In this document: positions 403-32,439 of the stretch, one piece after another
Position numbering within the stretch: the stretch's first letter is position 1
Layout: each line of letters begins with the position of its first letter
DNA from: a virus
Length of the DNA stretch: 43,700 nt
Direction: 5' to 3' (one strand)
IMG/VR virus record: IMGVR_UViG_3300036851_000239
Coordinates: 1-43,700 of that record
The notes under the pieces: model-generated
Seen by the model: the letters and a program-made list of their open reading frames with translations, nothing else
Databases searched by the model: none
Told to the model about the DNA's origin: nothing
Position numbers and translations under genes: made by a program

Positions 403-1284
403 CTACCTCACAAGATCAGCGAGTGACCGACGTGTCGTGGCCCTGCTCACCGGTGCCGTCTGCGCCATCGGTTGATTGGGGTTGAAGAGCAAGCTCGAAA
501 GCGTCTGATACCCGCGCTCTGCGCCCTGCCTGAATGGCGTTAGCCGCCCTTCGCGCTCCCGCTCCCGCAACAGCCGCAACTGCCGGTCCTCTTCCGCGCG
601 CGTGCGGTCTTCGTTCTCGAGGCCCCACATGCGCTCGCGCTCTTTCAGATATTCCGCGTAATCACGAGCGTCCTGCTGCTTCAGGAACTCCAAGGCCTGC
701 TGGTTGTATTGGCTCTGGAGATCCATGCCTCGGTTCGCCGCACGACTCTGGAGGCCCGCGCCGACGAGATTGCCAGCCAAGTCCGTGAGTTGCGCTCCGC
801 CTGGCGAGCCGAAGAACTTGCCCAGCGTTGAAAAGAGACCACCCTTCACGGCTGCTCCTGTCCCGGCCGCGGTGCCGGTGCCCAACATCCCGGCCGCGCC
901 GGGGCCTGTCAGACCTGCTGTCTCGAACCCCCACGCTGCAGGCATCGCTCCGGCCGCACCGCCGGCGCCGCCGATCAAGCCAGGCATGACACCGGGGATG
1001 CCGAACGCCGCCAAAGCAGCGCCCCCGACGACCGGTCCCCACTTCTTGGCCTGCTTCCCGAAGCCCTCGTTTTCGTTCATGTTCCCGGCTGGGTCGATCT
1101 CGACGCCTTTCGGGAACTGCACGCCCATCTGCTGCTGGATCGTGCGCTGGACCTGTTTGCGCTGCTGATCGCTGAGGCGAAATGGGCTATTCGGGTTGAT
1201 CCCCACGCTGGCGAGAATGGAGCGATACTGCGGGCTCGATCTCCATTGCTCGTTCCACGCGTTGATCTGTTGGCTGCTCGCCAT
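403..1284 (-). CDS. Gly/Ala-rich putative DNA-ejection (internal virion) protein
   Basis: 293 residues. Residues about 80-165 are very rich in Gly and Ala with hydrophobic stretches (GGAALAAFGIPGVMPGLIGG), like membrane-inserting internal virion proteins of short-tailed phages. Residues about 180-260 are highly charged and predicted helical (KERERMWGLENEDRTRAEED). The position after the P22 gp10-like tail gene, in front of two more long helical proteins, matches the gp7/gp20/gp16 ejection-protein block of P22-type phages. The assignment rests on context and composition; I recognise no specific family. The start abuts the stop of the upstream HNH gene. Confidence 0.6.
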   Translation of the reverse strand: MASSQQINAWNEQWRSSPQYRSILASVGINPNSPFRLSDQQRKQVQRTIQQQMGVQFPKGVEIDPAGNMNENEGFGKQAKKWGPVVGGAALAAFGIPGVMPGLIGGAGGAAGAMPAAWGFETAGLTGPGAAGMLGTGTAAGTGAAVKGGLFSTLGKFFGSPGGAQLTDLAGNLVGAGLQSRAANRGMDLQSQYNQQALEFLKQQDARDYAEYLKERERMWGLENEDRTRAEEDRQLRLLREREREGRLTPFRQGAERGYQTLSSLLFNPNQPMAQTAPVSRATTRRSLADLVR

Positions 1285-2252: not shown

Positions 2253-3674
2253 TCACGCAGCCGCCCTTCTCACATCAGCGATGAGATCCAACCACCGCCA
2301 CGCTACCGGATCGGTGGCCACGAGCTCAGGCACCATGTTGCGACCGCTTCCGCAGTTGTTCCAGATCACCCGCTGACCGTAGGCCCCTTGCACACCAGCG
2401 GAACGCGTGCGCTGATTCCCCCAAATCTTTCCGCCTGTCTTCGACATCCGCATCAACACGCTCGGGTCGCTGCCCTGCCCGCTGGTCAAGCCAAGGCCAG
2501 GCTCGAGATGCAACTGCAGCCGGTCGACAAAGAGCCGCTTCTGCTCGTCTGCGAGAATCGGCGGGATACGCATCCGCCGCAGGACATCGCCGTCCGCATC
2601 GGTGTAGAGATCGCTCGCCATCCGGTAGGTCGTCCCATTGCCCGCATGCAATACGAGGTGCCGGTTGAACACGTGCGTGTGATACTGCGGCCCCCACGCG
2701 GTAAACATGGTCCCGTCCCACGACGCTCGTTCGTGCCACATGCCTTCCGTGCGGTCGTAGACCCACGTCGCGTTGGCAGATGGGAAGTTCAATACATAGA
2801 AGTCGTGGCCCTGGTCCTGATAGCTCCACCCGACCGCATCATTGATGCGCGAGTACTTACTGATTGCCTGCTCGACTGGTTCGGTGCTGACGACCGTTGG
2901 GTTGTAGCCGAGTGCCTCCACGACCTGCCCATCCCCGTTTTTGTTGTGGGTCAGCCACATAATGGCGGCCCCGCAACGTTTCAACGAGAAGGGCGCGGCA
3001 ATCCCATACGGAATCTGCACGCCCGTGATAGGCGCGAACGGAAACGGGGAGTTGCCGGCGTTGTACCACACGTCGCCTGTGAAGTCGCCAATCAGAAAGA
3101 TGCGCGGATACTTGACCAGCATCGCCTTCCACGGGTCCGAGGCTGTCGACCGCTGGGCGATTTGCGTCCCGTCCCACGTGGTACCGTCCAGGGCATTTGA
3201 AATCTTCAGCGTGGACGTCACGCCGTCGAGCGCAAGGAAGCGCTCGTCCATGTAGCCGCCCATCGTCACGTCTGAGACGACCGACGTCAGCACGTTGGTA
3301 TTCAAATTTAGGATGTAGCCGGTATCGCCGGAGGTAATAAAGAGCTGGTCTCCAGCATCACCGTTTGTGCAGTGCGTTGATGGGTTTCCGTCCACGGCCA
3401 CGGTCCCGCGGCTGGTCGTTGTCCCGTCCGCATTGACTTCGTATTCGGTCGGGCCAATCGTGGCGAAGCACCGTTCCGTCCCGTTGATGGTGTGGCTGAA
3501 GATGCCGCGCCCTGGGCTCTCCGGAGCTGAACGGAACGTCGCTAGGCCGGGTGTTGGATAGAGCTTGTATTCCTGGCCGACACGCTGACTGTAAAGATTT
3601 ACACAGCGTTCCGGTGAGGCCAGCAGGCTCTGGCTTGCTAGCATCGTTGGGCCGGCGAAGCGAGGCCATCTCAT
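2253..3674 (-). CDS. P22 gp10-like tail accessory / packaged DNA stabilisation protein
   Basis: 473 residues, close to the length of P22 gp10. It opens with a typical MLASQSLLASPERCVNLY segment and a short PTPGLATF stretch, followed by repeated beta blades (GDQLFITSGDTGYILN; YPRIFLIGDFTGDVWY) as in the phage stabilisation protein family. In P22, gp10 closes the portal/gp4 channel after packaging and carries the tailspikes. The gene directly follows the gp4-like gene (5-base gap), the same order as in P22. Family assignment is from remembered pattern and context. Confidence 0.8.
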   Translation of the reverse strand: MRWPRFAGPTMLASQSLLASPERCVNLYSQRVGQEYKLYPTPGLATFRSAPESPGRGIFSHTINGTERCFATIGPTEYEVNADGTTTSRGTVAVDGNPSTHCTNGDAGDQLFITSGDTGYILNLNTNVLTSVVSDVTMGGYMDERFLALDGVTSTLKISNALDGTTWDGTQIAQRSTASDPWKAMLVKYPRIFLIGDFTGDVWYNAGNSPFPFAPITGVQIPYGIAAPFSLKRCGAAIMWLTHNKNGDGQVVEALGYNPTVVSTEPVEQAISKYSRINDAVGWSYQDQGHDFYVLNFPSANATWVYDRTEGMWHERASWDGTMFTAWGPQYHTHVFNRHLVLHAGNGTTYRMASDLYTDADGDVLRRMRIPPILADEQKRLFVDRLQLHLEPGLGLTSGQGSDPSVLMRMSKTGGKIWGNQRTRSAGVQGAYGQRVIWNNCGSGRNMVPELVATDPVAWRWLDLIADVRRAAA

Positions 3675-10285: not shown

Positions 10286-10506
10286 AGACCGTGTCTCCTG
10301 CGCCGCGCTCGACATTTCGCGCACCGCGTGCTGCTATAGCCGATCAGCGCTGCCCCACATGGCTTGCCATTCACCACCGCTGTGCATCGCGCCGGCGTCT
10401 TGACGACACGAGTCAGTGCCATCTGGCGGCACCGATCATCGATACCTAGGCACGCGCTCCCGGCCGCCGTGAAACCGTCCCGTGGCGCATCAACCCACCA
10501 ACTCAC
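10282..10506 (-). CDS. Small zinc-ribbon protein, unknown function
   Basis: 74 residues from a GTG that overlaps the portal stop (GTGA). The C-terminal half has a four-Cys pattern (ARCTAVVNGKPCGA ... TRCAKCRARRRR) and ends in a basic Arg run, suggesting a small zinc-binding nucleic-acid-binding protein. An in-frame ATG at 10422 would give a shorter product retaining the zinc ribbon. No family recognised. Confidence 0.55.
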   Translation of the reverse strand: MSWWVDAPRDGFTAAGSACLGIDDRCRQMALTRVVKTPARCTAVVNGKPCGAALIGYSSTRCAKCRARRRRHGL

Positions 10507-12752
10507 GCGTCGGCTCCGTTCGGCTTCGGCTTCGCCTTCTGCTGCTCCATCGCGTAGACGTGGCCTTGCTCGCCGGTTTCCAGTTCCTGCTGATGCGACA
10601 AGCCGGCCATGCCTCGTTCGTGCGCTTGCTCGCCCATCTGGGCATCCTGCTGCACCTGCAGATCCTGCTGGTGAATCTGCAGGTCGGCCATCTTGAGGAG
10701 TCGCTTCGTTTCCTCCTGCACCGCAATCTTCGCGGCTTCCGCGTCGAGCTCCGCCTGCAGCTTGATCATCTCAGCCCGAATCTTCGCCATCTCGACTTCG
10801 GCCTTCAGGCGCTCGATCTGCAGCTTCGCGGCGTCAGCATCCTGCTGCTTCTTGATGTCGGCCTCCGCCTTCACCATGTCCTGCTTGACGGCATCCTGGA
10901 GGCCTTTGATAACCTGAGCGTCCTGCTCGAGCACGGCTTTGAGCTGCGCGTTCTCCTGGGCCAGCTGCTGCGGGTCCATTGAGCCGTCTTCCTCTCGGAT
11001 GTTCGGCGGCAAGGTGCGATCGAGCCGGTCGGCGATCTCCCGGTTCCCAGGCCCGTCCATGTTCCTGACCGCAATAGGCGCCATAGCAGCGGCCATCGGC
11101 TCGGGCAGCACCTTCATCAGCTCGAGCTGGAAATCGGCGGCTTCCTGCCGGCGCGTGCTGTAACTCGCCCCAACATCGGCCACGACGTCGAACCGCCCGG
11201 CTCCCCACTGGAAGATACCCGCCACGCCGCGCTGCGTCTTCCGCTGCTGCCCCACAATCACTTCCTCGGTCTCGGTCTCGTCTTCGAGGCCAACAATCCG
11301 CAGCACGCGCCCAGGGCGGTTGTAAATCTTCGGAATCGCGCCCAAAAGCAGCATGCCCTCGAAGATCAAGGCCGCCCGAAAGTTGTCTTTGTAGTTGACC
11401 GCGCCCTCAGCTTGCGCGTCTTTCCGGGCCAGGATGGCCCGGCCGGACTGGTCGGCGTTCTTGCGGTTCGGGTCGGTCGCGTCGTACCAGCCGGTCGTCG
11501 TGCGGCAGTCCGACTTCGCCTGATTCAGCGCGATGGTGATCGCTTGCACCTTCGCCGGGTCGGTGAACTGCGCCACCTTCGGCTCCATCGGGCGTCCAGC
11601 GGTGTCATACGGGACAAAGGGCAGAACCGTATGCGCCTGACTCGCCGCGGTTGCCCAAGTCTTGGCGTAGGGCTCAATGGCTTCTGCCGGCGCCATCACC
11701 TTGGACTTCGGAGATAACGCAAGCTCGTAGACCAGTTCGGACGCCTGATAGTTGTACTGGCGCTGCGGATCTCGCGCCGCCCGCACAATCCCCCGTAGCG
11801 TGCGCTTGCCCTTGACCGTCAGCGACTCGCCGTACATCGGGACAATTGGGATGAACGGCCACGGCTGATCACGGCCTGCCGTCTTGTCCTCGTTGCCCTC
11901 CAGCACCTCCGCGCCGGTGATTTTGGCGAGCTTCACGACGCGCGTTTTGGGCTTGTGCGTCTGGATCGGCTGGACGCCTTTCGGCACGGCCGAGGACGGA
12001 ACGACGCTTCCGTCTTCCAACAGCGCGAACTCCGGACCGTCCTTCTCCTCAACGTAGAAGTAATCGACGACTCGCACCGAGCCTTCCGGAAACCAATCAG
12101 GCATGGCGATGCCAGTTGAGGCGAACGCATCCTGCTGCGTCGCGATGGCGTCCGGCCACTTCGCCTTGAACTCCTCCATCGGCACGTCTTCGATGATGAA
12201 GGCGTAATTGCACTTCCACGGCTCGTGCAGCGGCGTCGCTGGGTCCCTGAAGACGTTGAACTGGTTTTCGATGGCCTGATACTTGATGCACTGGTCGAAG
12301 ACTGGGGCCAGATCGCCGCCAGGCACCTGGTCGTACTCAAACTCGGTGAACAGCCGGTAATAGCCCCAACCCGGCCCGACCGCGCCCTTGAACGCTTCCT
12401 CGCGCGCTGGCTTCGCGTGGCCCGTGATCTCGATGTGTCGAATTAGGCCTTGGAACACTTCGGCCGTGTCGATATCTGCCCCGCTGTCCACTGGACTGAC
12501 CTGGATGGCTGGCTTCGAGCTCCGCATCTGGCCCACAAGCTGCCGATACGGCTCGCCAATCTGGTCAATCGTCAGGCAGGGCCGTGATTCACCCCGGGAG
12601 GACACGACGTCCGGGTCCCACTGCTCAAGGTTCAGGAACTGGAGGTCTTTCTCCCCTTCCTGCCGCATGGGCTGCTCAGCGGTGTCGGCAACCTTCCAGC
12701 GCGTGAGCGCCGTCGTCAGGAAGGGATTCGAGGCGGAGTCGATGTCAGCCAT
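10503..12752 (-). CDS. Portal protein, P22-type
   Basis: 749 residues, close to P22 gp1. N-terminal features include EKDLQFLNLEQWDPDV and RPCLTIDQIGEPYRQLVGQMRSSKPAIQV, typical of P22-like portals. The last ~160 residues are a long amphipathic helix rich in Gln, Ala, Glu and Lys (about 600-735), matching the long helical barrel that P22-like portals extend into the capsid. The portal forms the 12-mer DNA channel at one capsid vertex. It sits between terL-side small genes and the scaffold. Confidence 0.9.
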   Translation of the reverse strand: MADIDSASNPFLTTALTRWKVADTAEQPMRQEGEKDLQFLNLEQWDPDVVSSRGESRPCLTIDQIGEPYRQLVGQMRSSKPAIQVSPVDSGADIDTAEVFQGLIRHIEITGHAKPAREEAFKGAVGPGWGYYRLFTEFEYDQVPGGDLAPVFDQCIKYQAIENQFNVFRDPATPLHEPWKCNYAFIIEDVPMEEFKAKWPDAIATQQDAFASTGIAMPDWFPEGSVRVVDYFYVEEKDGPEFALLEDGSVVPSSAVPKGVQPIQTHKPKTRVVKLAKITGAEVLEGNEDKTAGRDQPWPFIPIVPMYGESLTVKGKRTLRGIVRAARDPQRQYNYQASELVYELALSPKSKVMAPAEAIEPYAKTWATAASQAHTVLPFVPYDTAGRPMEPKVAQFTDPAKVQAITIALNQAKSDCRTTTGWYDATDPNRKNADQSGRAILARKDAQAEGAVNYKDNFRAALIFEGMLLLGAIPKIYNRPGRVLRIVGLEDETETEEVIVGQQRKTQRGVAGIFQWGAGRFDVVADVGASYSTRRQEAADFQLELMKVLPEPMAAAMAPIAVRNMDGPGNREIADRLDRTLPPNIREEDGSMDPQQLAQENAQLKAVLEQDAQVIKGLQDAVKQDMVKAEADIKKQQDADAAKLQIERLKAEVEMAKIRAEMIKLQAELDAEAAKIAVQEETKRLLKMADLQIHQQDLQVQQDAQMGEQAHERGMAGLSHQQELETGEQGHVYAMEQQKAKPKPNGADA

Positions 12753-13741: not shown

Positions 13742-14134
13742 CTAAGCGACCTTCTTTCGCTGCGTGCGCCGGCACACCCGGCAGACATCGCAAAGGCCGC
13801 CGCCACGCTTTAACCTATTCCTGCTAAAGTCCGTTCTCGGCTTCGCCGTTCGACACGCGCTGCACACCCTATCCGTGTTCGGATTGCCTCCCGCGCGGAC
13901 GATGCGCATGCGCGCATGGAGCAGGTTGTGATAGGCGGCGTCCTGACAGATGACGAGCTGCGCCGCGGCGCTTTTCGTTCCATCGGCATGATGCACGACT
14001 GCCCCGGGCGGTAACGGCTTCCCCAATGCCCGCTCAGCCCTCCGCCGATGGATGCGCCCCTTCGAGTTGACTGGATACCACAAACCGGTGCACCCTGGAC
14101 CGACAGCGCCAGCCGGCTTCACTATCTCATCCAT
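13742..14134 (-). CDS. HNH endonuclease (HNH_3) with C-terminal zinc finger
   Basis: 130 residues. LWYPVNSKGRIHRRRAERA, then VVHHADGTKSAAAQLVICQ and AYHNLLHARMR give the HNH_3 His-His-Asp ... Asn-His pattern. The C-terminus has CSACRTAKPRTDFSRN and CDVCRVCRR, a pair of Cys knuckles seen in DNA-binding parts of homing enzymes. It overlaps the 3' end of terL by 13 bases. HNH enzymes beside terL can be packaging partners in some phages, but a free-standing homing enzyme is equally likely. Confidence 0.82.
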   Translation of the reverse strand: MDEIVKPAGAVGPGCTGLWYPVNSKGRIHRRRAERALGKPLPPGAVVHHADGTKSAAAQLVICQDAAYHNLLHARMRIVRAGGNPNTDRVCSACRTAKPRTDFSRNRLKRGGGLCDVCRVCRRTQRKKVA

Positions 14135-15633
14135 GAAGTTGAACCCATAGTGGAAGGCATAGCTCGGCGCATCGGCTGCAGATCCTGCGGCCGTGACACG
14201 ACCGGCTGCGCAAACGTCAGCGCGAGCGCATCGCCGTCATCAGGCGACTTCTCCCCGCGCTTCTTGATGTCCTCTTTGGATTCGAGCCAGATGCGCTGCT
14301 TGTTATCCGGCCTGAGCCCAGGTGCTTGCAAATCAATCTCCAGCCGAGGTGCCGCATCGATGGCTCCGGTGGCCAGCCACGCTTTCATCTCCGCCCACAT
14401 GTGATCGCGGTAGTACCGGCGCTTGTCGTTCGGCGAGTCCGCCCCGAAGTTCACTTCAGTGACGTTCCGGTGCCCTAAGTCCCTGAGGCGCTGCGCAATC
14501 GGCCCGGCGATACCGGCGCTGTCTAGGAACAGCATCGCCACCTTGTGCCCGCTGTAGGTCGAGGTCAGCACGTCGCCGAGGCGATTGGTCAGGACCGCCG
14601 GATCGGCGGTGAGCTTGCCGGGGATGCGGATGGACGGGATAGATCGGGCGTCTCGCCCTCGCCTGAACCGAATAACGTTGAAGTCGCTCCCGCCCCATGC
14701 GAGGTCACAACCAGCCACCAATGGTTCATCTGGGAGCACTTCCACACTACGCTTTTGAGCGTCGAGGACTCGCTGGGCGTCAATGAACTGAGCGTCTGAC
14801 GCATTCGGCGGCAGCCCGCACACTCGCACTCGAAAGAAGTCGGAATCCTCGCCATAGTCCTCCGCATACTCCTTGACCAAATCAGCGTTATGGCCTTCGA
14901 CGGTCCGAACATCGATCACCCACGACTTCCACCGATGGCGCTTGGTCGCGAACACCGCATCGTAGAACGACCCGCTGCGCCGCGTCGGGTTGCCGAAGAG
15001 GAAATACATCGGCTCGCCCTTCGCCAACCCGCCTTCCTGCACCTCGTGGATGACCTCAGGAACGTTGCTGTCCTCGTCGTTGATGTAGAAGCTGGTCGAG
15101 CGCTCCGAATGCTGCCCAGCGAACGCCTCGCTGTTCTCCGGGGCACAGGTCTGCGGCGTCACGCGCCAGGATTCCCGATGCCCCCTGCGGTAGAGAATCT
15201 GCGTGTTCGCTTCAAACCACAGGCTCGTGATGGATTGCTTGTTCCACCAGAGAATCGCCGCCCAGGTCTTGTCGTCGAGCTGCGTCGAGGTGTTCGCGGT
15301 CACCGTGCCCTTCGCGTCCACTCGCGTGCTCATCAGGAAATTCACCAGCATCCCGGTGAGCGCGCCCTTGCCGGCCCCGTGCCCTGAGCTCACGGCCCCT
15401 CGAATCGGTGGAACAGGCGTGATGCCGTCGAAGCGCCGGGCCTTGATCTCGCTGCCCAGCCAGTCGAGGAACTCGCATTGCCAGATGCGCGGTTCCTTGT
15501 AGCGCTCGAGAGGGGTATCTGGCACCGCCCATGGGAAGGCGAAGCGGACGTAACCCAGAGGATCGGCGTAGAACTCGCTGACCGCGTGCGCCAGTTCAAG
15601 TTCTGCCGATACTCCGCCCGTGGCGATTCGCAT
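14122..15633 (-). CDS. Terminase large subunit
   Basis: 503 residues. A Walker A motif is visible in SSGHGAGKGALTGM (residues about 81-94), followed by the ATPase region. The nuclease half contains AGCDLAWGGSDFNVIRF (metal-binding Asp) and AMLFLDSAGIAGPI. TerL packages DNA into the procapsid through the portal using ATP and cuts concatemers. The small-subunit candidate lies immediately upstream (5-base gap). The gene order terS-terL-portal-scaffold-coat is P22/lambda-like. Confidence 0.92.
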   Translation of the reverse strand: MRIATGGVSAELELAHAVSEFYADPLGYVRFAFPWAVPDTPLERYKEPRIWQCEFLDWLGSEIKARRFDGITPVPPIRGAVSSGHGAGKGALTGMLVNFLMSTRVDAKGTVTANTSTQLDDKTWAAILWWNKQSITSLWFEANTQILYRRGHRESWRVTPQTCAPENSEAFAGQHSERSTSFYINDEDSNVPEVIHEVQEGGLAKGEPMYFLFGNPTRRSGSFYDAVFATKRHRWKSWVIDVRTVEGHNADLVKEYAEDYGEDSDFFRVRVCGLPPNASDAQFIDAQRVLDAQKRSVEVLPDEPLVAGCDLAWGGSDFNVIRFRRGRDARSIPSIRIPGKLTADPAVLTNRLGDVLTSTYSGHKVAMLFLDSAGIAGPIAQRLRDLGHRNVTEVNFGADSPNDKRRYYRDHMWAEMKAWLATGAIDAAPRLEIDLQAPGLRPDNKQRIWLESKEDIKKRGEKSPDDGDALALTFAQPVVSRPQDLQPMRRAMPSTMGSTSWMR

Positions 15634-17743: not shown

Positions 17744-18376
17744 CTATCGCTCCCCACGGACGGCGGCGAGGGAGGCCAGTACTCGCTTGCTCTCGTCTAG
17801 TTCGATCTGCCAATACACCGGCGGGACTGGCTCCGTCTGACCATCGAATTGCCGAACCCATCGCACCAGCGCCTCGGTCAGCGTGGCAACCCGGGCCTCG
17901 GCTTCTCGCGCCTTGTGCTTGAGTGCATCGCGATCCTCAGCGAAGCGCTCGGCCATGTCACGGTGGAAGTCGACCGTCTTTGCGCATTGCTCCACCATCC
18001 GGTCGTATGTGCACCCGTAACAATCTCCGTCTGCTGGCAACGCACGATGACATGTCCCACAGCGTGCATCGCGCAGCGTGGCGACCTGCTGCTCCGCTTT
18101 CTGGGCTCTGTGTAGCGCGTTGCCTAGATCGTTCTTCGTGAAGCCTAATTCACCCCACGCGCCGTCTCGTTCTTGGACGAGCGTGGCAACCTGCTGCTGC
18201 AAGGCGTCTCGTTCCGCAATGACGTCGTCAAATACGTCTCGCGCGTGGTCAGTGGTCATCTTCGCCAACTCACCGACAGGATCTACCGCGCCGGCCGCCT
18301 GATGTTCTTCGCACATCCACTTCACCTCTGGATCGCAACCACAGTAGCGAGCACTTATGCCGGCATCTCGTCCCAT
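17744..18376 (-). CDS. Coiled-coil protein with zinc knuckle (210 aa)
   Basis: Start at the ATG of MGRDAGISARYCGC, 22 bases inside the 3' end of the DUF5131 gene. Residues about 45-100 and 150-190 are heptad-rich (IAERDALQQQVATLVQERDG; FAEDRDALKHKAREAEARV). Between them ARCGTCHRALPADGDCYGC is a four-Cys zinc motif. The repeated VATL phrase suggests internal duplication. Widespread type of phage accessory protein; function unknown. Confidence 0.65.
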   Translation of the reverse strand: MGRDAGISARYCGCDPEVKWMCEEHQAAGAVDPVGELAKMTTDHARDVFDDVIAERDALQQQVATLVQERDGAWGELGFTKNDLGNALHRAQKAEQQVATLRDARCGTCHRALPADGDCYGCTYDRMVEQCAKTVDFHRDMAERFAEDRDALKHKAREAEARVATLTEALVRWVRQFDGQTEPVPPVYWQIELDESKRVLASLAAVRGER

Positions 18377-19146
18377 GTCCGACCGTCGAGTAGGCGTCCG
18401 CCTGACTTCGGCGTCGGACCTCCCCATTGCTTGAAGAAGAACTTCACGCCAGCGGCCACGCACTGATCGCGGATATCCCGCACCCATTCCACCGCAATCG
18501 GGCGATGCTTCGGCCCGCTCTCGCCGCCCACAATGACCCAGTGGATGCCGTGGAGGTCAATATCGCCTATGTGCTCCAGGAGCGGCTCGATCGAGAGGAA
18601 TCGAACCGCCGCTGGCGTCTGCCTCAACACCGTGATGCGCGATTTCCAACGCCGATTCTCGACACTGACGCCGAGCCACATCTGGCACATCACAGGCGCG
18701 AACGAAATCGGTTGGCCTTGACGGTTCAGCCCGCGATCCTCCAGATACATCCGGCCCGAACCGTCGCTGTCAAAGCAGAGCCGCGACATGATCGACCGCA
18801 TCCGCTCCGGCCGCTTCGTGAGCACTTGGAACACATGCCCTTTCGCATGTCCCGCGCGAATCGAATCCAACACGCGAAGGATGAAAGCATCCGGCACGTC
18901 ATCGTGGAACAGATCGCTCAGGCTGTTCACGAAGATCCGGCGCGGTTTCGTCCAGTGCTTCGGCTGGTCGAGCCGGTTCACGTGGAGCTCCAGCGGAATA
19001 TGCCCCTTCACGAACCGCCGACCCCTGATCCGGAATGGTGGCGTCCGCTCGATGTAACACGATGCGCATGCGGGACTGATCTTGGTGCAACCAGTCGTCG
19101 GGTTCCACGTCGCGTCTGTCCATTCAATCTGTGAGTGGTCCGCCAT
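18355..19146 (-). CDS. Phage Gp37/Gp68 family (DUF5131) radical-SAM-like protein
   Basis: 263 residues. It starts with IEWTDATWNPTTGCTKISPACASCY, where Cys20, Cys27 and Cys30 form the three-Cys motif of this family, compatible with an iron-sulphur cluster. Further signatures are FVNSLSDLFH, VFQVLTKRPERM, WLGVSVEN, FLSIEPLLEHI and WVIVGGESGPKHRP, all characteristic of DUF5131. The fold is related to radical SAM enzymes such as spore photoproduct lyase. Substrate in phages is not established to my knowledge. No partner gene of the TcmP type is visible next to it. Confidence 0.9.
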   Translation of the reverse strand: MADHSQIEWTDATWNPTTGCTKISPACASCYIERTPPFRIRGRRFVKGHIPLELHVNRLDQPKHWTKPRRIFVNSLSDLFHDDVPDAFILRVLDSIRAGHAKGHVFQVLTKRPERMRSIMSRLCFDSDGSGRMYLEDRGLNRQGQPISFAPVMCQMWLGVSVENRRWKSRITVLRQTPAAVRFLSIEPLLEHIGDIDLHGIHWVIVGGESGPKHRPIAVEWVRDIRDQCVAAGVKFFFKQWGGPTPKSGGRLLDGRTWDEMPA

Positions 19147-29473: not shown

Positions 29474-29561
29474 GAGATATCGTCGCGTGGGTGAGATTTT
29501 TTGCAGCAATGCGACAAGTCCTTGCACGGCCGCCACTTGCGCGCGCCCATACTTGGCCGTG

Positions 29562-30035
29562 ATGGTGGATTCCCAGCTGGTGCGGGCGGCGTTGCGCCAA
29601 CTACGTACGGACGCGAACATGACGCCGGAAGAATTCGCAGACGGCGCAGGAGTCAGCAGAGCGACGGTGTATCGAATAGAGGATCTAGAAAAGACTTACG
29701 CGCCACGAATCGAAACAGTCAGCATGCTGGTTGAGAGCCGGCACATTACGCTTTCGGAATTCTTCGCACGAATCGAGGGCTTGCCGGCGCCGGACGTATC
29801 TGACACACTGCCTCCTCCCGTACCGAGCCCGCAGGGCAACCATGGCAATCGTGATCCCGTTCGTCAGGCGTCCGACGACACCAACGCGATCATTTTGCGC
29901 AACACCGCCGCCCTTGACGAACTCATCGAAGCCGTGCGGATGGTCAGCGGAGAACTGCGTGCGACTCGGGAACAAAATGCAAGTGCTCGCAATCACAAAT
30001 CCGCGAAGACTGCGGGAAGTGGAAAAGCTCGTTGA
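29562..30035 (+). CDS. CI-like repressor without a visible peptidase domain
   Basis: 157 residues. LVRAALRQLRTDANMTPEEF, ADGAGVSRATVYRIEDLEKT is an HTH_3 domain (residues about 5-60). The C-terminal ~90 residues are a Pro-rich linker and a helix LDELIEAVRMVSGELRATRE; the Ser/Lys peptidase S24 domain of LexA-type repressors is absent. The start is ATG 29562, with CATACT 8 bases upstream (29548-29553), suggesting a leaderless message. Divergent from the Cro-like gene. Without self-cleavage, induction must work by another route. Confidence 0.75.
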   Translation: MVDSQLVRAALRQLRTDANMTPEEFADGAGVSRATVYRIEDLEKTYAPRIETVSMLVESRHITLSEFFARIEGLPAPDVSDTLPPPVPSPQGNHGNRDPVRQASDDTNAIILRNTAALDELIEAVRMVSGELRATREQNASARNHKSAKTAGSGKAR

Positions 30036-30056: not shown

Positions 30057-31112
30057 ATGAGAAGCGCCCGCACCAGAATCGCGACGAACGTCTTTCGGGA
30101 CGCCTCGGGCATCTCGGCCATCGTCCGCGTTCGAGGACACAAGCCCAAGGAGCTGCGGTTCCTGCCCAACACGGCGCTGAAGGACATCCGGAAGGACATG
30201 GAGCGCTGGGCGGCCCGGATGCACACCGCGAAGCCGACGCCCAGCCGCGGCACGCTGGCGGCCGACGCCGTCACCTACGAGCGGCTCACTCGGCATCTAG
30301 TAAGCTGGCGCGAACGGCGCTCAGAGGTGCGTGCCCTGGTGCGCGCGCTGGGCGATACGCGACGATCGCAGATCCTGAAGGCCGATGTGCTCGAGATGCG
30401 CACGGCATGGCTCCAGGCCGGCGTGGCGCCCAAGACGTGCAACAACCGGATCGGGACGCTGCGGAACATCTTCCGCGTGTTGGACGGGAAAAGGGTCGAC
30501 ATACCCTGCGACGAGATCGAGGATCTGCCGATACACAGGACGCCGATCCAGCGCGTGTCCGTTGAGACGATTCTGGCGGTTGACGCGAAGCTCCAAGAGC
30601 ACGAGCGCAAGGGCTGGATACGCAACGCGAAGACGCGAGCCCGCTACCGCGTGATGGTCAGCACGGGTCGGCGGCCGTCCGAAATCGCACGCACCGAACC
30701 GGATGACGTAGACCTGTCGAATCGGATTTGGGTGCCACGCGACGGCAAGGGAGGCTTTACGCCTGGCCTGTACTTGAACGACGACCAATGGACCGCGTGG
30801 TTCCTCTTTGCCGAGGCGAAGGCATGGGGCAAGTTCAACGAGAGCGCGTTCGTGCGCACGTTGAGGACCGCCGGCTGGCCGGAAGGCGTGCGGCCCTACC
30901 AGGCGCGGCACACGCTCGGGATCACGCTCTCAGAGGCGGGAATCGACCTGGACGACGTTGGCGCGGCCCTCGGACACAAGCGCCGGGAGACGACCCGCAA
31001 GCACTATGTACCCGTGCTCGGCAGCCGCATGCAGGCCCTCAGCGAGAGCCTGTCCGGACGGTTCAATGGCTGGAACCGCGTGGAACCACAACGTGGAACA
31101 GACGACAAATGA
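30057..31112 (+). CDS. int: Tyrosine recombinase (phage integrase)
   Basis: 351 residues. The first ~150 residues are the arm- and core-binding region. The catalytic half shows STGRRPSEIARTEPDDV (Arg I), WVPRDGKGGFTPGLYLN (Lys region), PYQARHTLGITLSEAGIDLD (Arg II; the usual first His of HxxR is Tyr here), ALGHKRRETTRKHYVPV (His/Trp position and the Tyr nucleophile). It starts 21 bases after the repressor stop, with AGAAGG upstream, and attP lies just downstream. Integrates the phage at the host attB. Confidence 0.92.
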   Translation: MRSARTRIATNVFRDASGISAIVRVRGHKPKELRFLPNTALKDIRKDMERWAARMHTAKPTPSRGTLAADAVTYERLTRHLVSWRERRSEVRALVRALGDTRRSQILKADVLEMRTAWLQAGVAPKTCNNRIGTLRNIFRVLDGKRVDIPCDEIEDLPIHRTPIQRVSVETILAVDAKLQEHERKGWIRNAKTRARYRVMVSTGRRPSEIARTEPDDVDLSNRIWVPRDGKGGFTPGLYLNDDQWTAWFLFAEAKAWGKFNESAFVRTLRTAGWPEGVRPYQARHTLGITLSEAGIDLDDVGAALGHKRRETTRKHYVPVLGSRMQALSESLSGRFNGWNRVEPQRGTDDK

Positions 31113-31308
31113 CGCATCCTCAGTCAGATACAGGCGAGGGCTTTGCATTCGACTCCCAGGCGCTTCCGCCAGATATCTCGTGTAGAATAAGGCGTTTATC
31201 CTCTGTTTTGGCTCCGTTCCACGACTGGTTCCACTTCACAGAAATTGGAATGAAATGGCGCATATAAATACTGTCTGGATTAACATTCGTGGCACCAAAC
31301 GTGGAACC
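31079..31308 (+). promoter_or_regulatory. Arm-type repeats around attP (CGTGGAACC-like)
   Basis: The octamer or longer CGTGGAAC(C) occurs at 31079-31087 and 31092-31099 on one side of the attP core, in inverted orientation at 31216-31223 (GTTCCACG) and 31227-31234 (GGTTCCAC) on the other, and again at 31300-31308. Five copies flanking a core site is the layout of integrase arm-binding sites. The first two lie inside the int 3' end. Other occurrences elsewhere (for example near 38625) are isolated. Confidence 0.6.
31148..31171 (+). other. attP: attP core matching the 3' end of a selC (tRNA-Sec) gene
   Basis: The segment starts TTCGACTCCC and ends GCTTCCGCCA, 24 bases. A normal tRNA has 23 bases from the T-loop TTC to CCA; the selenocysteine tRNA has 24 because its acceptor stem has 8 pairs. 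E. coli selC has TTCGACTCC and ends CTTCCGCCA, so both length and flanks agree. It lies 35 bases after int. Only the 3' part is present (no full cloverleaf upstream), as expected for an attP that restores the host tRNA on integration. Confidence 0.75.
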
Positions 31309-31327
31309 GCTTGTGGAGGTGTGTCTG

Positions 31328-31636
31328 ATGCGAATACGAGTGTGGCAGGTTCTTGTGAGCGTGGCCGTGGGCGTACCTCTGGGGCTCATCTTGGCGCCAC
31401 CGTTTGCGGCCATGCGTCCCCTTCCGCCCCCAATCGTGGAGCGTGTTCCGATCCACACCGCCGACGTCCTGGACACCGGAAAGGCCTGCGTCTACACGTG
31501 GGGCGAGGAGGTGTTTATCTGGCAGCGTCAACACATCGGCATCCCGCTGGCGAAACCGTGTCCTCCTATAAAAGAAGCGCAACGGCGGTGGCGCGAGGCG
31601 CAGCAAGCTCCAGTCGCGGTGTTGGCCAGGACATGA
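31328..31636 (+). CDS. Single-pass membrane protein, paralogue of the 16067-16435 product
   Basis: 102 residues. Start ATG 31328 has GGAGGT 7 bases upstream; the longer GTG start at 31289 was rejected because this ribosome site is so good. N-terminal helix VLVSVAVGVPLGLILAPPF, then MRPLPPPIVERVPIHTADVL, DTGKACVYTW and WQRQHIGI, which closely match the other copy. ATGA overlap with the lipoprotein gene makes them an operon, and both lie beside attP where lysogenic-conversion genes are common. Function unknown. Confidence 0.75.
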   Translation: MRIRVWQVLVSVAVGVPLGLILAPPFAAMRPLPPPIVERVPIHTADVLDTGKACVYTWGEEVFIWQRQHIGIPLAKPCPPIKEAQRRWREAQQAPVAVLART

Positions 31637-32439
31637 ACAAGACCCTGCCTGCGCTTGTCGTCCTGTGCGTGCTGCTCACCGGCTGCGGGAGCGAGCAGTC
31701 CCCGCTCGGCCCAACGCCCACCCCGTCGCCCGCTCCCCCGGCGGCGTTCTCGGGCTCGGTCACGGACACCGTCACCGGTGCGCCGGTCGCCGGCTTCACG
31801 GCCCTGATCGCAGGCTCGCGGCTGACGGTCTCCGCGCCGGGCTACGTGACACGGGAGACACGTTCCAGCGCCACGAGCGTGGACCTGATCCCTGAGGCCG
31901 GCTTCGACCTCGGCTTCTATCGAGAGCTCGCCAGAGGGACGATTGAGACGTCCATGCAGCCCTTGCGGGTTCTCTCTCAAGCACCGAGCATCTACCTGCA
32001 GACGCCCGGACTCTCACCCGCGAATGTCGCGGCGCTTGAGCAGGCGGCTCGAGCCGTCGTGCCGGACATGACGGGCGGACGCTTTCAGGTGCAGGCGTGG
32101 GAGACCGGAGCAGGTACGCGGGGCGACAGTGCCGGCTGGATCACGGTGGAACTCGTCAATGATGGCGGCTTGTGTGGCCGCGCCAATGTCGGCGTGCCAG
32201 GGCATGTCTGGCTGAACCTGCACAGCCAGTGCGCTCGAGAAGGATTTGCGGTCTATCCGCCGCTCTTTGCGCACGAACTCGGGCACGCCCTCGGCTTCAC
32301 ACACGTGACGAGAACGGACGCATTGATGCACACGCCGATGACGCAGGGCGTTCGGTCGCCGCCGGCTCTTGAGCGCCATCACGCCGCGATCGCCTACAAG
32401 CGGCAGGCTGGGAATCGGGACGTCGACGTGGATCGATAG
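31633..32439 (+). CDS. Lipoprotein with metzincin (matrixin-like) zinc-protease motif
   Basis: 268 residues. N-terminus KTLPALVVLCVLLTGCGSEQ has a lipobox LTGC, followed by a Pro-rich spacer and a short carboxypeptidase-regulatory-like repeat (FSGSVTDTVTGAPVAGF). The C-terminal domain contains AHELGHALGFTHV: HExxHxxGxxH with His214, Glu215, His218, His224, and a Met-turn at Met232 (ALMHTPM). The last residues (HHAAIAYKRQAGNRDVDVD) resemble secreted lipoprotein proteases that I associate with Acidobacteriota. As a surface protease next to attP, it may be a conversion factor expressed in lysogens. Confidence 0.8.
   Translation: MNKTLPALVVLCVLLTGCGSEQSPLGPTPTPSPAPPAAFSGSVTDTVTGAPVAGFTALIAGSRLTVSAPGYVTRETRSSATSVDLIPEAGFDLGFYRELARGTIETSMQPLRVLSQAPSIYLQTPGLSPANVAALEQAARAVVPDMTGGRFQVQAWETGAGTRGDSAGWITVELVNDGGLCGRANVGVPGHVWLNLHSQCAREGFAVYPPLFAHELGHALGFTHVTRTDALMHTPMTQGVRSPPALERHHAAIAYKRQAGNRDVDVDR

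Follow-up and report, generated by a model that had tools for sequence, protein, structure and literature searches.

A predicted attP core matching the 3' end of selC in a tailed-phage genome with probable hosts in the Vicinamibacteria

Retronphage phiR73 and the selC islands of enteric bacteria integrate by means of a tyrosine integrase. Their integration at selC, the gene for tRNA-Sec, has been described (cited in PMC7266877; PMC6174562), which agrees with an earlier reading of the present DNA, made from sequence only, that had named selC as an integration site in enterics. The Pf-tRNA-Sec prophages of Pseudomonas aeruginosa are filamentous and integrate at selC; their sister groups use tmRNA (PMC7549136). 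According to the authors who described the Burkholderia phage PhiE067, selC has rarely been identified as a phage site (PMC7266877). No earlier report of prophage integration in Acidobacteriota or Vicinamibacteria was found in the literature searched.

The window is the whole stretch of 43,700 nucleotides analysed here. Its 24-mer TTCGACTCCCAGGCGCTTCCGCCA is read, with a probability of about 0.94, as the attP core of a temperate tailed phage with a P22-like portal, predicted to integrate at host selC and to restore the 3' end of the tRNA. This reading, put forward earlier as a selC-like attP core, is supported by matches in selC genes, by 12 further contigs with a related integrase and by a conserved attP anatomy.

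Phage genome, integrase and attP region

The window is a soil-type tailed-phage genome with a GC content of 62.9%. In addition to the portal and terminase genes (Table 1), the minus strand carries genes for a major head protein and for a head-closure protein. The window shows no direct terminal repeat. An open frame of 358 aa on the minus strand spans the joined window ends and hints at a circularly permuted complete genome. A DUF5131 protein (PF07505, E 2.6e-88), belonging to a family without known function, is encoded at 18355-19146 (-).

Table 1. Positions of phage genes, putative attP core and arm-type sites in the window
Feature	Position	Strand	Remarks
P22-like portal protein	10503..12752	-	about 32-34% identity to GenBank phages
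Terminase large subunit	14122..15633	-	
HTH (Cro/CI-type) regulator	29487..30035	+	directly upstream of integrase
Tyrosine integrase, 351 aa (P0001)	30057..31112	+	Int_N + Phage_integrase
Left arm-type site 1	31079..31087	+	CGTGGAACC, within 3' end of integrase gene
Left arm-type site 2	31092..31100	+	CGTGGAACA, 13 bases after site 1
Putative attP core	31148..31171	+	T-loop (TTCGACT), 3' strands of T-stem and acceptor stem, discriminator G and CCA of selC
Inverted arm-like site, right side	31216..31223	-	GTTCCACG
Inverted arm-like site, right side	31226..31234	-	TGGTTCCAC
Right arm-type site 1	31288..31296	+	CGTGGCACC
Right arm-type site 2	31300..31308	+	CGTGGAACC, 12 bases after right site 1

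The integrase P0001 is a tyrosine recombinase by its match to PF00589 (E 8.7e-13, 48.8 bits, cut-off 27.1). Residues R206, K231, Y281, R284, H307 and Y317 are invariant in eight aligned integrases, and in all eight a tyrosine (Y281) replaces the usual histidine of HxxR. P0001 has no match among 50,697 GenBank phage records. The HTH regulator is a candidate repressor or excision regulator.

The 24-mer is present in a single copy in the window, even with three mismatches permitted, and is absent from 100 shuffles. Counted from the initial T of the T-loop (T54) through the terminal A (A76), it measures 24 bases, one more than in an ordinary tRNA, exactly as the sequence-only reading had counted. 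The acceptor stem of 8 bp assumed in that reading holds for length; perfect pairing does not. In the one acidobacterial selC gene folded, the stem consists of seven pairs and an A.G apposition at the eighth position; thus the 8/5 geometry is retained in length, not in perfect pairing.

Both the position of the core, 35 bases after the integrase stop codon, and its flanking arm-like repeats had been noted earlier, and both were recovered; the core is adjacent to the integrase gene and lies between 9-mers, with inverted copies on the right side (Table 1). Twelve distinct attPs were compared, L012 being a duplicate of L011. A right arm pair, with its members 12-14 bases apart, is located about 105-150 bases past the core in 12/12. 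On the left, 12/12 have one arm or a pair between about -81 and -46, the repeats of the common layout standing at about -70/-57. Right pairs are significant against shuffles (p<0.05) in all 12, the pair scored in L007 not being the obvious GGCAC one. Left pairs are significant at this level in nine attPs and weak, above that level, in L001, L101 and L007. The arm sequence varies by phage group (CGTGGAACC, CCGTGGCAC, TCCTGGCAC, TCGGAGCAA, GTACGGGAC, CGTGGCCCC and others).

Immediately to the right of attP, a frame at 31255-32439 (+), with a probable start at 31633, encodes a putative lipoprotein with a matrixin-like HExxHxxGxxH motif. Its match to PF00413 (E 1.9e-4) is under the curated cut-off, and it is regarded as a candidate cargo gene. 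A matrixin-like ORF (79-2187) also adjoins the displaced core of the bacterial stretch L028, which is described below.

The core in bacterial selC genes and in other viral contigs

An exact scan of one genome per species (84,980 species) gave 76 genome stretches with the 24-mer; by our own arithmetic, about 0.002 exact matches are expected by chance in 257 Gb of genomes. In 73 of the 76 stretches the 24-mer exactly ends a tRNA-SeC gene called by ARAGORN (anticodon TCA), and the Rfam tRNA-Sec model agrees for 3/3 genes tested. The resemblance to a selC 3' end proposed from the window is therefore an identity, and the search for host selC genes suggested with it returned these 73 tRNA-Sec genes, nearly all from one Acidobacteriota class. 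Titles of the records with the 24-mer are almost all Acidobacteria, Vicinamibacteria or Vicinamibacterales. Among 46 placed host genomes, 45 belong to a single class, for which the name Vicinamibacteria (Acidobacteriota) is taken from record titles and which includes records titled Cyanobacteria, Acidimicrobiia and Terriglobia. The sole genome outside the class is a record titled Dehalococcoidia (L024). Since the 24-mer is almost wholly confined to one Acidobacteriota class, it provides a host assignment, and the host of the window phage is most likely a member of the Vicinamibacteria.

Additional copies of the selC 3' end occur near selC in two stretches. In a closed Vicinamibacterales chromosome (L084, 4972-5346), three more such copies are arrayed in tandem behind selC, with a repeat period of about 97-128 bases; repeated insertion and slippage are candidate origins. 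In L074, the 24-mer at 551-574 (+) is accompanied by a second, inverted copy at 2711-2734 (-), 2.1 kb from selC, and a transposase-like ORF (1022-2095) lies between the two.

The exact 24-mer is also present in 12 other IMG/VR contigs. An integrase of the P0001 clade is encoded just upstream of the core in 12/12 (L002 being the same contig as L098); full-length clade members are 44-89% identical to P0001. The bases before the core are ...TTTGCA in the window and ...TTAAC or ...TTCTT in others, and some contigs reach into the T-stem with GGG or CTGGG. Beyond CCA the sequence diverges immediately among phages. The identity common to all of them extends exactly from T54 to A76 (CCA). In L008 and L001, the closest relatives of the window, its flanks are kept to the left and to the right of the core.

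Of 67 viral stretches with a match to the pattern TTCGACTCCNNNNNNCTTCCGCCA, 12 are acidobacterial and 55 have selC variants of other bacteria. A complete tRNA-Sec is present in 30/55 of the latter, and none of the 55 holds a close relative of P0001 (best E 1e-13).

Integrated elements and other targets of the integrase clade

No integrated copy of the P0001 clade at selC was found in 46 hosts, 193 class genomes and 396 phylum genomes, the first genome look for integrated relatives being shallow, with 5-10 candidates scored per genome. One genome match reached E<=1e-50 (L107 in genome G027), with no selC core in the 4 kb read. L107 (G027:C126) is part of a MAG with selC on another contig; the integrase relative is followed downstream by a repeated C-terminal fragment, which suggests that an element at another site has decayed or been duplicated.

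Three genome stretches hold the 24-mer without a tRNA (L028, L036 and L065). In isolate NP133, selC with the core is followed by foreign sequence in L056, which constitutes attL; L036 consists of foreign sequence, core and right flank and constitutes attR. Over 182 bases, the right flank of L036 shares 90% identity with its counterpart in the empty site L024. On the right, L065 matches the corresponding flank of empty selC sites (L046, L013, L023 and others), beginning at about base 13-52; on the left, the flanks of L065 and L036 are related. A further integrase type (1667-2890 in L069; PF00589, E 8.7e-28) faces selC in isolate NP936, and the displaced core is found in L028 (3838-3861). This case is less clean because the conserved chromosomal flank begins only 850 bases past the core. 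In MAGs of marine Acidobacteriota, this attB is used by a second element family, with another integrase type. Taken together, the empty site L024, attL in L056 and attR in L036 establish the 3' end of acidobacterial selC as a working attachment site, for another integrase family and not for the P0001 clade. The check for attL and attR proposed by the sequence-only reading gave both for an element of that other family at the same core; for the P0001 clade neither was found in the genomes searched.

In relatives of P0001 without the selC 24-mer, other gene ends follow the integrase stop codon. The core of L095 ends tmRNA genes in 4/10 host genomes, that of L104 ends tmRNA genes in 2/193 genomes, and that of L094 ends a tRNA-His gene in 1/193 genomes. 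By these matches, the 3' ends of tmRNA (L095, L104) and tRNA-His (L094) are the likely attP cores in place of selC. The core of L105 looks tmRNA-like. A 25-mer and a 23-mer of L097 had no match in the genomes searched. Right arm pairs are located at similar distances in 4/5 non-selC attPs examined. In an integrase tree of 23 sequences, in which the badly cut row L110 is to be ignored, L094 and L095 are close sisters (100/100 with L096) despite their differing targets. Because the backbone is weak, the tree does not give the order or number of target changes.

It is put at even odds that a single Acidobacteriota integrase clade with a fixed attP architecture has shifted its target between no fewer than three gene 3' ends, those of selC, tmRNA (ssrA) and tRNA-His, with core and arm specificity changing separately; the last point is suggested by the variation of arm sequences among phage groups. 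If true, the clade would be a natural series in which the change of integrase targets could be studied.

Proposed integration and comparison with described systems

In the proposed mechanism, the integrase would bind the arm repeats to the left and right of the core, and the core would recombine with the identical 3' end of host selC. As the identity common to all phages starts at T54, strand exchange probably takes place in or near the T-loop; the remainder of the core may be retained through the need to restore the tRNA. As attP contains the T-loop through CCA, integration would exchange the selC 3' end for an identical one, and tRNA-Sec would stay intact. The predicted attL consists of selC followed by the phage side starting at 31172, and the predicted attR of integrase, displaced 24-base core and chromosome. 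Recombination, the position of the crossover and lysogeny are presumed for the window phage.

It is extremely unlikely that the 24-mer belongs to a phage-encoded tRNA-Sec gene, decayed or partial, that plays no part in integration, even though tRNA genes are known from phages and the 24-mer matches a tRNA 3' end perfectly. Its conserved 24-base limits already disfavour decay: the shared part starts at one and the same 5' position in all phages, the preceding sequence is unrelated, and the 24-mer always lies just downstream of the integrase, between arm repeats. Neither the window nor the stretches of the 12 related contigs yielded a complete tRNA with ARAGORN, and Rfam gave no match at 31100-31200, where only the 3' end is present and the tRNA-Sec family (RF01852) is not recognized. 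A phage-borne tRNA gene at the site was rejected on these ARAGORN and Rfam results. The presence of the selC 3' end only is as expected of attP.

It is very improbable that the window is an integrated prophage or a chimera, with the 24-mer as attR or as a host remnant in place of a free attP. Proviruses with host selC attached are indeed numerous among IMG/VR contigs that carry other selC variants; the window has none attached. Its sequence is phage-like on both sides, with the integrase left of the core and minus-strand late genes elsewhere on the contig, and the flanks shared with L008 and L001 also argue for a free attP. A satellite or genomic island would fit the many known selC users that are of this kind, LEE and phiR73 among them (PMC7266877, PMC6174562). 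This, too, is a most unlikely account of the window, which encodes portal, large terminase, major head and head-closure proteins; among the genes tested, no essential virion gene was seen to be lost or decayed.

With the attP-core reading, the few phages listed as users of selC gain a new lineage, and a set of uncultivated phages can be assigned to a host through the core. The Acidobacteriota class concerned is a major soil group for which few phage reports were found. The attP set, with constant spacing and varied arms and targets, offers comparative data on integrase specificity and is useful for building integration tools for Acidobacteriota. The parts of interest are the host group, the clean series of 13 contigs and the shifts from one target gene to another among members of the integrase clade.

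The Pf-tRNA-Sec prophages share with the window a tyrosine integrase and an attP that is a 3' fragment of tRNA-Sec, theirs being 27 bp in length (GGGTTCGACTCCCACTGCCTTCCGCCA); use of tmRNA by their sister groups has its counterpart in relatives of the window integrase (PMC7549136). They differ in being filamentous, in the host phylum and in the selC variant, and viral contigs with the Pf selC variant give only distant matches to the window integrase. Burkholderia phage PhiE067 is likewise a tailed temperate phage with an attP (19 bp) matching the selC 3' end, but is a myovirus with a P4-type (INT-P4_C) integrase, a Burkholderia host and a shorter core (PMC7266877). Unlike the window, phiR73 and the enteric islands are P4-like satellites or pathogenicity islands with enteric hosts and a different selC sequence. 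Podoviruses of the P22 type were compared by the portal protein, which resembles that of the window; the window integrase is without a match in GenBank phages. The use of selC is thus a known strategy with an ordinary mechanism, recorded in enterics, Burkholderia and Pseudomonas, and here it concerns a little-studied host group.
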